The notes under the pieces: generated by a model
The model's database searches: none
What the model was told of the DNA's origin: nothing
Seen by the model: the letters and a program-made list of their open reading frames with translations, nothing else
Shown: piece by piece, positions 4,631 to 60,722 of the stretch
How positions within the stretch are numbered: the first letter of the stretch is position 1
Layout of the letters: every line of letters begins with the position of its first letter
Source: Candidatus Gastranaerophilales bacterium
Lineage (GTDB): Bacteria; Cyanobacteriota; Vampirovibrionia; Gastranaerophilales; Gastranaerophilaceae
Reading direction: 5' to 3'
Assembly (NCBI GenBank): GCA_947625305.1
Contig: CANQNW010000003.1
Span: 124,001-188,000, forward strand
Length of the DNA: 64,000 nt
Made by a program: the position numbers and the translations under genes

Positions 4631-5647
4631 TTATTTAATGTATTCCTTTGCAAATTTAGGAGTAAATACTTCCCAAGCCTTTGCATTCGGATGCCAATCA
4701 GCTATATCTTCTTTTAATTTATAATCTTTATCAAACAAAAATCCTGTTATATCTTTAGTTTTTACTACTGTCAACCCCGGTTCTTCTTTTAATTCCTCCC
4801 AAACATCCGAATAAAGCAATTCGGAGTCAAACTTGGTTTTTAATATTCCCCACAAATCTGTAACTTTTTCATTATAAACGATGATTATTATTTTAGCATT
4901 CGGATATTCATTACTTATTTCATTTCGCATTGATAATATAACTTTCTTAAGATAATTTTCACTATTAGTGAAATATCTTGTATAATTATCCGGATATTTA
5001 CCTGATGTTAATATTTTATTTAATTGATAATATGATAATATCAATTTTATGACAGGTATATCCGTTATTTTTGTTATAAATTTATTTTTAGATGAGCTAA
5101 ATATAATATTATAATTGTTATAAATTAAGTTTATATCCATATACCTGCTTATGTGATCAGCCATATATAAATAAATAACATAATCTGCATTTTTTATAGG
5201 TTGTCCTTCATTATAAGACTTCATTTTTGCTAAACTTGAAAGTCCATCTGCTCCGCAGGAACTAAAATTATATACGGGACGTTTTGTTAGTTCGGCTAAT
5301 AAATATGGAAAGGTTTCTTCTGTTTTTAACCCGTGACCGTACGTATAAGAACATCCCAAAATTATTATAGGATTGTTATTATAATTTTCCCCAAAAATAT
5401 CTCTTGGTTCACCGCAAAATTTCTTAAAATTTTCTTCAGAACTTTCAATTGTTTTTCCTGTAAACTTTTCAGTAATTTCTTTATTTAAACTTAATTTTGA
5501 ATAATCAATATGTAAAAAAATATTATTATGTTTACCTATTAAGTTAAATATTTTTTCAGTATTTTTATTAATTATAAAATTTAAAACTGTAAGAATAATT
5601 GCAAATATTACAATATTAATAAATACAATTTTTATAATTTTTTTCAT
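4631..5647 (-). CDS. SGNH-hydrolase-like membrane-anchored protein, paralogue 2
   Basis: A 338-residue protein. Residues about 5-27 form one hydrophobic helix after KK, giving an N-terminal anchor or uncleaved signal with the remainder outside the cytoplasm. GCSYTYGHG near residue 98 fits SGNH block I with its nucleophile serine, and DWHPNAKAW near the C-terminus supplies the Asp-x-His pair of block V. The family includes esterases and AlgX-like O-acetyl-modifying proteins, so a role on an envelope glycan is plausible but unproven. It is the middle copy of a tandem triplication with near-identical 22-base spacers. This copy keeps all putative catalytic residues. Confidence 0.8.
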   Translation of the reverse strand: MKKIIKIVFINIVIFAIILTVLNFIINKNTEKIFNLIGKHNNIFLHIDYSKLSLNKEITEKFTGKTIESSEENFKKFCGEPRDIFGENYNNNPIIILGCSYTYGHGLKTEETFPYLLAELTKRPVYNFSSCGADGLSSLAKMKSYNEGQPIKNADYVIYLYMADHISRYMDINLIYNNYNIIFSSSKNKFITKITDIPVIKLILSYYQLNKILTSGKYPDNYTRYFTNSENYLKKVILSMRNEISNEYPNAKIIIIVYNEKVTDLWGILKTKFDSELLYSDVWEELKEEPGLTVVKTKDITGFLFDKDYKLKEDIADWHPNAKAWEVFTPKFAKEYIK

Positions 5648-5669: not shown

Positions 5670-6686
5670 TTATTTAATGTATTCCTTTGCAAATTTAGGA
5701 GTAAATACTTCCCAAGCCTTTGCATTCGGATGGCAGGGAGCTATATCTTCCTTGATTTTATAATCATTATCGAATAAAAATCCTGTTATATCTTTAGTTT
5801 TTACAATCGTTAAACCGGGTTCATCTTTTAGTTCCTCCCAAATATGCGAATAAAGCATTTCCGAGTCAAACTTGGTTTTTAATATTCCCCATAAATCTGC
5901 AACTTTTTCATTATAAACAATGATTATAATTTTAGCATTAGGATATTCATTACTTATTTCTCTTTTTATTGATAATATAACTTTCTTTAGATAATTTTCA
6001 CTATTTGTGAAATATTTTTTGTAATTATCTGTATATGTACCTGAAGTTATTATTTTATTAATTTGGAAATGAGATAATATTAATTTTATAAGAGGTATAT
6101 TTGTTATTTTTTTGATAAATTGATTTTCAGATGAACTAAATATAATATTATAATTGTTATAAACTACAGATGCATCCATATACCTGTTTATATGATCTAA
6201 CATATACAAATAAATAATATAATCTGCATTTTTTATAGGTTGTTCTTCATTATAAGACTTCATTCTTGCTAAACTTGAAAGTCCATCTGACCCGCAAAGA
6301 CTAAAACTGTATACAGGCCGTTTTGTTAGTTCGGATAATAAATATGGAAAGGTTTCTTCTTTTTTTATTCCGTGGCCATATGTATAAGAGCAGCCTAAAA
6401 TTATTATAGGGTTGTTCTTATAATTTTCTCCAAAAATAAATCTTTGTTCACCGCAAAATTTCTTACAATTTTCCTCTGAAATTTCAAGAGTTTTACCGAT
6501 ATATTTTTCGGTAATTTCTTTATTTAAACTTAATGCAGCATCACTCATGTAATTAAAAACATTATTAGAGTTCTTAAGCAAGTTAAATATTTTTTCAGTA
6601 TTTTTATCAATTATAAAATTCAAAACTGCAAAAATAACAGTCAATATTACAATATTAATAAATACAATTCTTATAACTTTGTTCAT
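5670..6686 (-). CDS. SGNH-hydrolase-like membrane-anchored protein, paralogue 3 with altered block V
   Basis: A 338-residue sister of the 4631-5647 gene with the same N-terminal membrane helix and block I (GCSYTYGHG). The C-terminal block reads APCHPNAKAW instead of ADWHPNAKAW: the putative catalytic Asp is Pro and the next Trp is Cys, while His is kept. Either this copy has lost hydrolase activity, or the Asp is not essential in this family. Its ATG directly follows the stop of the PC4-like gene, so the two are probably co-transcribed. Substrate unknown. Confidence 0.78.
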   Translation of the reverse strand: MNKVIRIVFINIVILTVIFAVLNFIIDKNTEKIFNLLKNSNNVFNYMSDAALSLNKEITEKYIGKTLEISEENCKKFCGEQRFIFGENYKNNPIIILGCSYTYGHGIKKEETFPYLLSELTKRPVYSFSLCGSDGLSSLARMKSYNEEQPIKNADYIIYLYMLDHINRYMDASVVYNNYNIIFSSSENQFIKKITNIPLIKLILSHFQINKIITSGTYTDNYKKYFTNSENYLKKVILSIKREISNEYPNAKIIIIVYNEKVADLWGILKTKFDSEMLYSHIWEELKDEPGLTIVKTKDITGFLFDNDYKIKEDIAPCHPNAKAWEVFTPKFAKEYIK

Positions 6687-15915: not shown

Positions 15916-16932
15916 TTAATTAAAATTATATCTAAACATTGGTTTTATTGTTTCTGGAATACATAAATCAAATCTTTTATCTGATGTTGACGGAGGACAA
16001 TTTAAATCTCCCGTAAGCCCGTCACAATATTTAGTATATGTTGGTTTTTTCTTTTGTCCGAGTGCGGTACAAAATGCCTCTCTATATGTATATACAGCAA
16101 GCCCGTCTTCTTTATTTAACTTTGGAACATTTATTACCCCAAAATTACAAATCTCTTTAGTTTTTCCGTCCTTTTGTTTTAAATTACATTCGGAAGGTAT
16201 TGTTTCCTGATTACGGAACTGTTTATAATGTTTTTTTGTTCCGTCTTCAGATATTTCATAAGTATTATAATAATATCCTTTTACTGTGGAATTGAGATAT
16301 ATTACCCATCTTCCTTCGCCCATATCTATATTATTAGCTGCAACACCTACAGGATATACTTCGCCGTTATCTAATATTAAAAACGATACTATATCAGGTA
16401 TTTTAGAACCGCTTTTAGCACTTATATTAGGCTTTTGAGGCCCGTTTAAATCAACCCCGATTATTCTATAGCCGTAAAGATTAGATACATTACTATTCGT
16501 CTGTCTTTTTGAAATAAAATATCTGTGCCCGTTTGTTGCAATAAAAGCCGGAGCCATTCCGTCTGCCTTGATAATAGGATGTCCCGAATCAGGATCTGTA
16601 TCTGTGTCCGCAAAATTTCCACAATTATTTTTTCCTGATGCATTGACCAAACTAAAAATTGAATCACAAAAAAATTTATCATCAGTTGTTATAATATATT
16701 GCATTAAATCTTCTTTAAATTCTATTGACGGTTTTTTATCATCAGCAGGTGAATTACCTGCAATTAATTCTCCTGCCATTTGTTTTATATTATTAAATTC
16801 AAAATATGCTAATGAGGCATATGACGTTTTTATTATTTTTAAAGTTTGTATTGACATGGCTACTATAAAACCTATTATTACCATGCATATTAAAACTTCT
16901 GCCAGAGTAAACCCATTTTTACACTTTTTCAT
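15916..16932 (-). CDS. Type IV pilin/pseudopilin-like protein
   Basis: A 338-residue secreted protein with a classical prepilin leader: MKKCKNG then FTLAEVL, where prepilin peptidase would cut after Gly and the Glu lies at position 5 of the mature protein. A hydrophobic helix to about residue 32 follows. The long C-terminal domain contains at least nine cysteines and repeated Gly/Asp/Asn loops (DTDTDPDSGHP), suggesting disulfide-bonded or ion-binding structure outside the cell. It is larger than a major pilin (about 150), so more likely a minor pilin or adhesin. The ATG overlaps the end of the DUF3326 gene by 14 bases; AAGGAAG is the ribosome site. Confidence 0.85.
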   Translation of the reverse strand: MKKCKNGFTLAEVLICMVIIGFIVAMSIQTLKIIKTSYASLAYFEFNNIKQMAGELIAGNSPADDKKPSIEFKEDLMQYIITTDDKFFCDSIFSLVNASGKNNCGNFADTDTDPDSGHPIIKADGMAPAFIATNGHRYFISKRQTNSNVSNLYGYRIIGVDLNGPQKPNISAKSGSKIPDIVSFLILDNGEVYPVGVAANNIDMGEGRWVIYLNSTVKGYYYNTYEISEDGTKKHYKQFRNQETIPSECNLKQKDGKTKEICNFGVINVPKLNKEDGLAVYTYREAFCTALGQKKKPTYTKYCDGLTGDLNCPPSTSDKRFDLCIPETIKPMFRYNFN

Positions 16933-56829: not shown

Positions 56830-57513
56830 ATGAAATACAAATCGAGATTAAATCAAATACATAATTTACCCGGCACACTGATATGTGTTGAAGGGATAGA
56901 CGGTTCAGGCAAATCCACCCAGCTGGCGATATTACGTGACTGGCTGAAATCTTTAAAGCAGGATGTAATATTTACGGAATGGAATTCATCGGATTTAATA
57001 TCCCAGACAACAAAGCTGGCAAAGAAAAAGAATTTATTAAGCCCGAGGACATTTTCACTCTTGCATGCGGTAGATTTTGCTGACAGACTGGAGCAGATAA
57101 TAATTCCCGCTCTAAAGGCTGGTTTTATTGTGCTTGCCGACAGATATGTTTATACTGCATTTGCAAGAGATGTAGCAAGAGGTGTTGATAGGGATTGGGT
57201 CAGAAAGGTGTACGGATTTGCCGTAAGACCTGATTTAACATTATATTTTAATGTAACGGAAGAAGTATCCTTAGAGAGAATTTGCGCTAACCGCTCACCA
57301 AAGTTTTATGAAGCGGGAATGGATTTAAAAATAAGCAATGACCCTTATGAAAGCTATAAAATTTTCCAAAAGCGGGTTAATGATGAGTACAAAAAGATGA
57401 TAAAAGAATACTCGCTTGTAGAAATAGATGCGAATGACAGCATACACAATAAACAATTATTTTTTAGAGAAAAAGTAAAAGAAGTTCTTGCTCAAAAAGG
57501 AATAACACTGTAG
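56830..57513 (+). CDS. Thymidylate-kinase-like protein, copy 1
   Basis: A 227-residue P-loop kinase of the thymidylate kinase family (dTMP to dTDP). P-loop VEGIDGSGKSTQ near residue 20; DRYVYTAFARDVARG near 115 is the dNMP-binding DR(Y/H) region. The acceptor-site and LID regions are less conserved (CANRSPKFYEAGM). It is about 15 residues longer than typical. The next gene begins right after its stop and is a paralogue. One of the pair is probably the essential dTMP kinase; I cannot say which. Confidence 0.85.
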   Translation: MKYKSRLNQIHNLPGTLICVEGIDGSGKSTQLAILRDWLKSLKQDVIFTEWNSSDLISQTTKLAKKKNLLSPRTFSLLHAVDFADRLEQIIIPALKAGFIVLADRYVYTAFARDVARGVDRDWVRKVYGFAVRPDLTLYFNVTEEVSLERICANRSPKFYEAGMDLKISNDPYESYKIFQKRVNDEYKKMIKEYSLVEIDANDSIHNKQLFFREKVKEVLAQKGITL

Positions 57514-58173
57514 ATGGCAAAATATAAATCAAAACACGGCTATGAAGGCTTATTAATAGTAATAGAAGGAACTGATGGTTCCGGAAAATCCACCCAGATT
57601 GAGAAATTAAAAAGGTGGATAGAAGACCAATCATACGGTGTTATGGTAAGCGAATGGAAAACATCAAAATTCATAGCCGATGCCATTAATGATGCAAAGG
57701 ATAGAAACCTATTAAATGCAACTACATTCAGTTTATTATATGCGGCAGATTTTGCTGACAGGCTTGAACAGGTTATAATACCTGCATTAAAAGCAGGGTT
57801 TGTAGTCATTTTAGACAGATATGTATATACCGCATATGCTCGTGATGTTGTAAGAGGACACAATATAGAATGGCTTAAAAACCTATATGATTATGCCCCC
57901 GAGCCTGACATGGTATTTTACCTTGATGTTCCCGTAGAAATACTGTTAAAAAGAATTATAGGAACAACCGGGCTTGATTATTGGGAATCCGGAAGAGATA
58001 TAGGTTTAAGCAGCGATTTTTATAAAAGCTTTCAAATTTATCAGGGCAAATGCCTTGATGAATATCATAAAATGATAAAAGAATACGGATTTATTTCTAT
58101 TGACGGTACATTAAGCATAAAAGATATTCATAAAAAAATAATTTCTGAAGTTAAAAACCTGCTAGAAGTCTAA
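57514..58173 (+). CDS. Thymidylate-kinase-like protein, copy 2
   Basis: A 219-residue paralogue of the preceding gene. P-loop IEGTDGSGKSTQIEKL near residue 17 and DRYVYTAYARDVVRG near 110 are kept; the C-terminal part reads TGLDYWESGRDIGL where copy 1 has SPKFYEAGMDLKIS. The ATG is immediately after the copy 1 stop, so translation is coupled. Substrate may be dTMP or another nucleotide. They could form a heterodimer, since family members are dimeric. Confidence 0.85.
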   Translation: MAKYKSKHGYEGLLIVIEGTDGSGKSTQIEKLKRWIEDQSYGVMVSEWKTSKFIADAINDAKDRNLLNATTFSLLYAADFADRLEQVIIPALKAGFVVILDRYVYTAYARDVVRGHNIEWLKNLYDYAPEPDMVFYLDVPVEILLKRIIGTTGLDYWESGRDIGLSSDFYKSFQIYQGKCLDEYHKMIKEYGFISIDGTLSIKDIHKKIISEVKNLLEV

Positions 58174-58549: not shown

Positions 58550-58553
58550 GATG

Positions 58554-60722
58554 ATGAATAAGAAAAAAGGGTTTTCACTTGCAGAATTATTAATTGCTTT
58601 ATTAATCATAAGTATAGTTTTATCTGCTGCAATACCAACCATTACAAAAAAGAATACAAAATCAGGTGAAAAAACCTGGCGCTGGGCAGCAGATAATAAC
58701 AATTTATATTCTGCAGTCGGAGCAAATCAAAGTATAATAATCGGTGCCGAAGATTTACCATATAAAGACGAATCATTTTATAATGCAGATGGCGGCACAA
58801 GCGGAAATACTTCAGGGGCAAATAAAACTTTAGACTTAAAAAACTTTTTTTATGATTCGGAAATAGTCCTCGATAGTGATATGACTAAAAGATTTACAAC
58901 GGACGGTGATAAACTGGTCATCATAAAACCGAGTTTTAAAGGTAATGCTGGTATAGACAGTTTAATCAACTCACATATTTCTTTTTACAATATAGAAGAT
59001 CCGCAATTAGCTTCAGGAACAAAAGAAGTAATATATGCAGGCAGACTTGCACTGGATAAACATAACATGGCGCTGGGAATAGGGGCATTACAAAATAATT
59101 TCCCCGTGGAATCAGGAAAGTCCGCTTTTAGCACATCTCAATTTCATGGATTTAATACAGCACTCGGGCATTATGCTTTATTCCATAATAACAGCGGGCA
59201 GTATAACACCGCAGTTGGAGAAAAATCTTTAACACACAATGCAACGGGAAATTTCAATACGGCATTAGGATATTATTCATTATCCAATTCGGGCAGCAGT
59301 ACTATAAGTTCCAATAATACATCAGTCGGTGCATATTCAATGCAAAGATACTCTGAAGGTGATAATAATACAGCATTGGGATATATGGCTTTGGCATCAA
59401 GTTCCGGCTCAATTAAAGGAAATAATAACACGGCAATCGGTTCAGGTGCTTGCGGAAATTTAAACGGAAATAATAATATATGTATTGGTTATAACGCAGG
59501 AGCTTCTAATGAATCTAAAGATTTAAGCAACGGCTTTTATCTTGGCAGTGATTCAAACGGTATACCTTTTATGTATGGAAACATGGATAATGATACAAGT
59601 AATGCCTCCAAAACTAAACAAGTAAGAAACTTGAATGTTGCTGTTGATGTTTTTCAAATTAATAAAAGAATAAATAATTATGAACAACCCATCTTTATTG
59701 CGGCAAGCGAACAAGCTTTAGGAATTGCAGGTGCAAGTCAAAACTATTACAGATTTAATTTTTTAACCGATAATACACCAAATGCAGTTAAAATGCTCAG
59801 TATTTATGCAACTCCTCAATCAGGTACATCGGGCGGTGAAATAGTTCTTGATACAAAAGGAGACCCCACAAAACAAGAATCCGTAAGAAACTTAATAATA
59901 AGCAATAAATTATTCTTTACTTTCCCCCAAACGGGACTTGTTAAAATCAGCGGTATCGGAACAGGTATAAATATAAATGATGTAGCACAATTTAAAACTG
60001 AAGATAAGAAAAATGTATTTTCAATATTATATAATGGTACATCAAATCAATATGACAGTTTACAAATAAAAGTAGGTGATGATGGCATTTCAACATTAAA
60101 TGCACCTACCGGCAAATTACAATTATTTAATGCAAATAATACAATTTTTCTATCAAATGACAGCGGTTCTTCTCAGGTAATGTTAGATATTGACAAAATT
60201 AATGTAAAAAAAGATGCAAGTATAGAAGGTAACTTAACCCTTAATTCAATAAAAGAAGGTTACAGTAAAGATGTAGCTGTAAATATAAGTTCAATTTGGG
60301 ATCAAATTTTAGTACTTAACAAATCAACAGGACAATACTCCGATATCCGTTTAAAAGAGAATATAACACCAAATACTTCAGGGTTAAAAGAAATTAATGC
60401 TTTAGAAGTAAAAAATTATACTTATAAAAAAGATAAAGAAAAAACTAAACACGTTGGAGTAATAGCTCAGCAGTTACAAAAAATCTTCCCGAATGCAGTA
60501 ACAAAAGATAAAGACGGTTACCTGCAAATAAGACAAGAAGATATATTCTATGCAATGGTTAACTCTATCAAAGAATTATTTGCCAAAATTCAAGATTTAA
60601 CCGCTAAAATAACGGGGCTTGATAAACGGTTAACCGAACTGGAAAAAGAAAATGCTCAGCTTAAAAAACAAAATGCAGAGTTTGAAAAACGACTTTCAAA
60701 ATTAGAAAAAGCTAAAAATTAG
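58554..60722 (+). CDS. Prepilin-type protein with tail-fibre-like head repeats and peptidase S74 chaperone domain
   Basis: A 722-residue secreted chimera. The N-terminus MNKKKG-FSLAELL is a type IV prepilin leader with Glu at mature position 5 and a hydrophobic helix. The centre (about 165-330) has YadA/tail-fibre-like repeats of the NTALGHYAL and NTAVGEKSL type. The C-terminus contains the peptidase S74 intramolecular chaperone signature SDIRLKENI at about residue 596, then GVIAQQL and a coiled coil (DKRLTELEKENAQLKKQN). S74 domains self-cleave after folding a trimeric fibre. GGAAAG lies before the ATG; a second ATG is at 58551. Confidence 0.85.
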   Translation: MNKKKGFSLAELLIALLIISIVLSAAIPTITKKNTKSGEKTWRWAADNNNLYSAVGANQSIIIGAEDLPYKDESFYNADGGTSGNTSGANKTLDLKNFFYDSEIVLDSDMTKRFTTDGDKLVIIKPSFKGNAGIDSLINSHISFYNIEDPQLASGTKEVIYAGRLALDKHNMALGIGALQNNFPVESGKSAFSTSQFHGFNTALGHYALFHNNSGQYNTAVGEKSLTHNATGNFNTALGYYSLSNSGSSTISSNNTSVGAYSMQRYSEGDNNTALGYMALASSSGSIKGNNNTAIGSGACGNLNGNNNICIGYNAGASNESKDLSNGFYLGSDSNGIPFMYGNMDNDTSNASKTKQVRNLNVAVDVFQINKRINNYEQPIFIAASEQALGIAGASQNYYRFNFLTDNTPNAVKMLSIYATPQSGTSGGEIVLDTKGDPTKQESVRNLIISNKLFFTFPQTGLVKISGIGTGININDVAQFKTEDKKNVFSILYNGTSNQYDSLQIKVGDDGISTLNAPTGKLQLFNANNTIFLSNDSGSSQVMLDIDKINVKKDASIEGNLTLNSIKEGYSKDVAVNISSIWDQILVLNKSTGQYSDIRLKENITPNTSGLKEINALEVKNYTYKKDKEKTKHVGVIAQQLQKIFPNAVTKDKDGYLQIRQEDIFYAMVNSIKELFAKIQDLTAKITGLDKRLTELEKENAQLKKQNAEFEKRLSKLEKAKN

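Follow-up and report, generated by a model that had tools for sequence, protein, structure and literature searches.

A predicted prepilin-anchored, phage-fibre-like protein with a C-terminal S74 chaperone in Gastranaerophilales

An intact open reading frame (ORF) at positions 58554–60722 of the window (the whole stretch of 64,000 nucleotides analysed here, to which all coordinates refer) encodes a protein of 722 residues on the forward strand, as are all features of the gene given below. Translation could equally begin at an ATG at 58551 (MMNKKKGFSLAE), in which case the leader would read MMNKKKG. Both end domains exceed their curated Pfam cut-offs within this single chain: N_methyl (PF07963) at residues 1–27 (E = 6.8e-8; 32.2 bits against a cut-off of 21.2) and Peptidase_S74 (PF13884) at residues 596–650 (E = 4.2e-18; 65.8 bits against 22). 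The initial annotation had described a pilin leader, fibre-like repeats and a C-terminal S74 domain in one chain, and the ORF, the Pfam matches and the repeat count bear out that description together with its coordinates. Conserved in the genus, the gene as a whole can be read as coding for a prepilin-anchored fibre with a C-terminal S74 chaperone. Its combination of a prepilin motif with a module that is not specific to type IV pili places the product among the modular pilins as these have been defined (PMC8179133).

The host is a Gastranaerophilales bacterium, a gut organism related to cyanobacteria, with a 1.97-Mb genome in which the S74 gene is single; its closest relatives in public data are MAGs of Candidatus Gastranaerophilales. 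The gene sits in a housekeeping neighbourhood, in the order prephenate dehydrogenase, two dTMP kinases, DciA, the prepilin–S74 gene, an S4-domain protein and an ABC transporter, and the congeners examined have the same arrangement. The two dTMP kinase genes are adjacent (56830–57513 and 57514–58173), and the pair is likewise retained in those congeners.

The N-terminus has the marks of a type IV prepilin: a class III signal peptide, Gly/Ala at −1, Phe at +1, Glu at +5, a hydrophobic helix and the PF07963 match, to which TIGR02532 adds a second profile hit (26 bits against 16.3). From its motif and its conservation in homologues, the leader MNKKKG (58554–58571) is predicted to be cut by prepilin peptidase after Gly6. 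The hydrophobic pilin helix follows at residues 7–34 (58572–58655), covered by PF07963 and strongly conserved among congeners, and would serve as both membrane anchor and filament-packing helix. Gly/Ala at −1, Phe at +1 and Glu at +5 occur in 45 of 45 complete homologues, a pattern that the search motif partly presupposed. Next comes a Trp-rich neck (residues 35–75; 58656–58778) with the motif WRW; W-x(1,2)-[WYF] stands near mature residue 35 in 39 of the 45 homologues, and beta-type sequence comes after it. Modelled at full length, the monomer scored poorly (pLDDT 42.8); at that low confidence the model places a helix at residues 9–32, ending near residue 32 with the Trp motif directly after it, where pilin alpha-1 usually runs for about 50 residues. 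No pilin globular domain or alpha-beta roll was recognised after the helix, where such a domain would normally begin.

At the other end of the chain, residues 596–660 (60339–60533) form the S74 intramolecular chaperone domain, followed by a predicted C-terminal coiled coil at residues 661–722 (60534–60719), with 82% of its a/d positions hydrophobic. An AlphaFold2 model of residues 583–722, built with 32 aligned sequences, reached a mean pLDDT of 88.4 and agrees with the coil. Its best structural match is the intramolecular chaperone (ICA) of MYRF (7dc3; Z = 8.6 over 108 aligned residues; Foldseek E = 4e-5). Further matches are endoNF (3gw6, Z = 5.9), GA-1 (3gud, 5.6) and T5 pb1 (4uw8, 4.8); unrelated helical structures reach the Z range of these three and only MYRF stands above it, but the three agree with the MYRF match and with the sequence evidence. 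A profile of the S74 sequence searched against the PDB returned MYRF (2.2e-8) and phage tail fibres. The domain hence has the PF13884 match over cut-off, the conserved Ser–Lys pair at +5 and the ICA fold with a C-terminal coiled coil.

The cleavage motif is Ser596-Asp597-x-Arg599-Leu-Lys601 (SDxxxK). A profile search that made no use of the motif gave 91 homologous S74 ends, some of them from overlapping loci, and every one has S596, D597, R599 and K601; the Ser–Lys dyad is also invariant over 32 aligned rows that include viral S74 domains. In MYRF and endoNF the dyad is likewise a Ser with a Lys five residues on (S587/K592 and S911/K916), and in MYRF the substitutions S587A and K592A each abolish cleavage (PMC8326128). 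Bdellovibrio Bd3182 also carries SDxxxK, and its cleavage is blocked by S782A (PMC10769870). By this equivalence Ser596 corresponds to S587 and S911, and Lys601 (60354–60356) to K592 and K916, so that the spacing places the pair for a predicted autocleavage at the Tyr595–Ser596 bond (60336–60341), by the mechanism described for the characterised domains (PMC8326128); the suitability of these residues for cleavage, on which the initial annotation depended, is upheld. On model and sequence, then, the domain is a true S74 chaperone whose residues are positioned to cut at Tyr595–Ser596, and the lack of any variation in the dyad speaks for a cut that is in use. The equivalent coil drives trimerisation in MYRF (PMC8326128). 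By analogy with its homologues, which lend this good support, the 722-residue protein would form a trimer and cleave itself.

Between the two ends lie repeats and a variable region. NTAIG-type repeats resembling YadA heads and tail fibres occupy residues 171–330 (59064–59543) with a period of about 16–20 residues; eight units were counted in residues 141–350, where 0.05 were expected after shuffling. In PHROGs the repeat part matched phage virion-structural and tail-spike families (E to 6e-18), and repeat and S74 parts were both assigned to phage virion, tail-spike and tail-fibre families. The model shows short regular strands over most of residues 201–310 (block pLDDT 58–72). Pfam YadA_head gave no match in the protein itself and a sub-threshold one in a homologue (L032; 22.1 against 25 bits). 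Because a sequence search of the PDB with the repeats returned nothing meaningful among solved structures, the link to YadA heads is drawn from the repeat pattern, the PHROG matches and the sub-threshold match in the homologue. The remainder, residues 331–595 (59544–60338), is a hypervariable fibre or tip region, delimited by congener identity and by an island in nucleotide identity, that would provide the new C-terminus after S74 cleavage.

Conservation along the chain is sharply uneven. Compared with 17 congeners, the leader and helix (residues 1–34) have a median identity of 85%; the value is 44% in the neck, 29% in residues 76–170 and 44% in the repeats, falls to 16% in residues 331–470 and 13% in residues 471–595, and rises to 75% in the S74 domain and 79% in the coil. 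Two congeners (L028 and L054) have neighbour genes 74–99% identical to those here and a prepilin–S74 protein only 48–53% identical, and in them divergence is limited to residues ~54–595, between conserved ends. Nucleotide identity drops from about 0.75–0.93 to 0.4–0.67 past residue ~54 and returns to about 0.8–0.9 at residue ~604. Paralogues within two other genomes (G332 and G116) have the same layout, with 65–93% identity over the 240 nt that open the mature part, 73–94% at the S74 end and 22–57% at the amino acid level in the middle. The most variable part of the protein is thus the part predicted to be the exposed tip once the S74 domain is removed, a pattern like that of phage receptor-binding fibres. 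Recombination may be the cause. Silent cassettes in the host's own genome were considered as a source of the variation and rejected: the genome has one S74 copy only, and no second near-full match was listed.

The protein is a regular feature of the genus. A search of 34 same-genus genomes gave strong matches in every one, with best E values between 1e-42 and 2e-212; most consist of one ORF of 700–930 codons covering both ends of the query. Across the family, 83 of 146 genomes had an S74 profile match, a few of them weak, with at most 13 matches per genome, a maximum reached in related genera; several genera have no S74 pilins, and the protein is therefore accessory. The order of domains recurs in other genomes: a prepilin motif starts 52 of the 53 distinct S74 ORFs of Gastranaerophilales whose 5′ end lay inside the fetched stretch. 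The one S74 protein checked from a photosynthetic cyanobacterium (G076, L194) has a different N-terminal part and no prepilin end. The genomes G332 and G116 (L098–L113) carry at least eight S74-pilin paralogues each, mostly single or in small scattered groups, and these copy numbers are possible lower bounds, with several G116 copies at contig ends. In other lineages (L032:2951–7133, L057 and L061) three short prepilin–S74 genes of about 370–500 amino acids stand in tandem.

Type IV pilus machinery is encoded elsewhere in the genome, and the prepilin–S74 gene adjoins no pilus gene. A PilB-type ATPase, a platform protein and a secretin lie in one cluster, and the genome also has two PilT-family ATPases over the curated cut-off, a second platform protein (two PilC in all) and a prepilin peptidase. 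Seven N_methyl proteins are encoded, that is, six besides the prepilin–S74 protein. At 15916–16932 of the window lies a genuine N_methyl protein of 338 amino acids that is found in most of the genus and has a fairly conserved C-terminal part. Nearer the start of the window, at 4631–5647 and 5670–6686, are two tandem 338-residue ORFs resembling GDSL hydrolases, with weak Pfam matches.

Taken with the fold, the dyad, the domain order and the pilus machinery, the variable-middle pattern makes a modular minor pilin bearing a fibre the best explanation that we found. The protein is probably a modular minor pilin that matures itself, works as a homotrimer and presents a diversifying, adhesive structure of the phage-fibre kind. 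The core of the initial annotation, a pilus-linked trimeric fibre folded by S74, stands in this form on the strength of the fold, the invariant residues, the domain order and the machinery, while its claim of novelty and its suggested partner pilin do not. Under this reading, the pilin helix would serve to export the chain and to anchor it in the inner membrane. Three such chains would join in the periplasm through the C-terminal S74 chaperone and the coiled coil, and this trimerisation would set the repeat stalk and the variable tip in register. Once the trimer had folded, Ser596 and Lys601 would cut the Tyr595–Ser596 bond, freeing a 127-residue chaperone and baring the variable tip. The leader would be taken off by prepilin peptidase, and the type IV pilus machinery would incorporate the three anchor helices, with the end of the pilus as the most likely site by comparison with CofB (PMC10191384). 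The variable tip may bind a changing partner, for example a glycan, mucus or another cell. Of these steps, trimerisation and self-cleavage are inferred from homologues, whereas adhesion and the loading of pili are inferences only.

Several other readings of the locus were weighed. That the gene is a prophage or phage-remnant tail fibre that gained its signal by chance has next to no probability in our estimate. S74 and the repeats do resemble phage fibres, and viral contigs hold many S74 domains at 30–42% identity; but those contigs yielded nothing related to the protein over its whole length, GC and GC3 are like those of the neighbouring genes, and 52 of the 53 complete family members have the prepilin end. 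The syntenic housekeeping locus across the genus and the phylogenetic spread refute a prophage origin. A two-component tip complex with the large pilin at 15916–16932, the partner suggested in the initial annotation, is very improbable. Both are large N_methyl proteins on the same contig and both occur in nearly all congeners, but the genes are 42 kb apart, the candidate is one of seven N_methyl proteins in the genome, nothing ties the two genes together, and finding them side by side in a genome carries no information when nearly every member of the genus has both. We give equally little credence to the peptidase reading of PMC8179133, in which the domain is listed as peptidase activity and a modular pilin would use S74 as an active protease to cleave other substrates. 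The Pfam name Peptidase_S74 and the conserved Ser–Lys dyad could be taken to favour it; against this, the characterised S74 domains (endoNF, T5 pb1, MYRF and Bd3182) are described as self-cleaving folding chaperones, and the domain here has a trimerisation-type coil after it and fibre repeats before it, as in phages.

The chief rival, which we regard as unlikely though deserving of serious attention, is a trimeric fibre anchored in the inner membrane and not incorporated into a pilus at any stage. Its prepilin leader and helix would serve for export and anchoring only, and the fibre, once matured, would remain in the envelope or be released. The lack of a recognised pilin globular domain after the helix, the position of the gene with tmk and dciA away from pilus genes, and the short-helix-then-Trp pattern common in the family all speak for it. 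Opposed to it are the host's retention of type IV pilus machinery, the strong diversification, which fits exposure on the outside, and the occurrence of Gly/Ala-Phe and Glu5 in every complete homologue, even if the search motif partly presupposed it. In pilins, Glu5 is known as a residue of filament assembly.

Contrary to what had been proposed at first, the architecture itself is not new, because in 2021 the combination of pilin and S74 (IPR012902+IPR030392) already counted as one of the 15 commonest modular pilins and was read as a peptidase (PMC8179133); this was the only literature joining S74 with pilins that we found. Measured against the literature consulted, what is new is the chaperone and trimer reading with its evidence, the spread and copy number of the family in Gastranaerophilales, the invariant dyad, and the pattern of conserved ends and variable middle. 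Modular pilins such as PilB and PilC of Streptococcus sanguinis likewise graft a non-pilin functional module onto a prepilin N-terminus (PMC8179133), but here the graft is predicted to be a repeat fibre with a self-removing, trimerising chaperone, in an expanded and diversifying Gastranaerophilales family, and the pilin globular module of PilB was not recognised. The type IVb proteins CofB and TcpB, likened here by description, are also close: CofB, a trimer, sits at the pilus tip as a minor pilin and carries extra domains past its pilin module (PMC10191384, PMC8179133), although both are without an S74 chaperone or self-cleavage. PilV shufflon adhesins of IncI-complex plasmids pair a constant minor-pilin N-terminus with a variable adhesin region on type IV pili (PMC9045228); their variation arises by DNA inversion, their variable part is the very C-terminus, and no S74 domain is described.

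On the fibre side, the Bdellovibrio MAT fibres (Bd3182, S74 group) are bacterial, exported, trimeric and self-cleaving, with a variable tip and a C-terminal SDxxxK S74 domain (PMC10769870). Compared by description and by the shared S74 motif, they differ in having a beta-rich domain of ~130 residues directly after the signal peptide, where the protein here has a prepilin-helix anchor in a host with type IV pilus machinery. EndoNF, T5 pb1, the GA-1 neck appendage and MYRF share the S74 fold, the +5 Ser–Lys dyad, the C-terminal coil and removal after folding; the first three are phage proteins and MYRF is a transcription factor of the ER membrane, and none has a prepilin anchor.

More tentatively, and at somewhat less than even odds, we propose that Gastranaerophilales have a dedicated multigene family of homotrimeric, phage-fibre-like pilin adhesins, in which S74 cleavage is a folding checkpoint: only correct trimers would shed the chaperone and be loaded at the type IV pilus tip, by three anchor helices that lack the usual pilin domain, and the tip would diversify between strains like a phage receptor-binding protein. 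If so, type IV pili can bear self-maturing trimeric fibres of the phage kind, and the S74 chaperone, studied so far in phage fibres, MYRF and Bdellovibrio fibres, would act on a pilus subunit. A common and unexplained class of modular pilins, so far read as peptidases, would gain a function, and likely surface adhesins could be named for the Gastranaerophilales, mostly uncultured bacteria of the gut.
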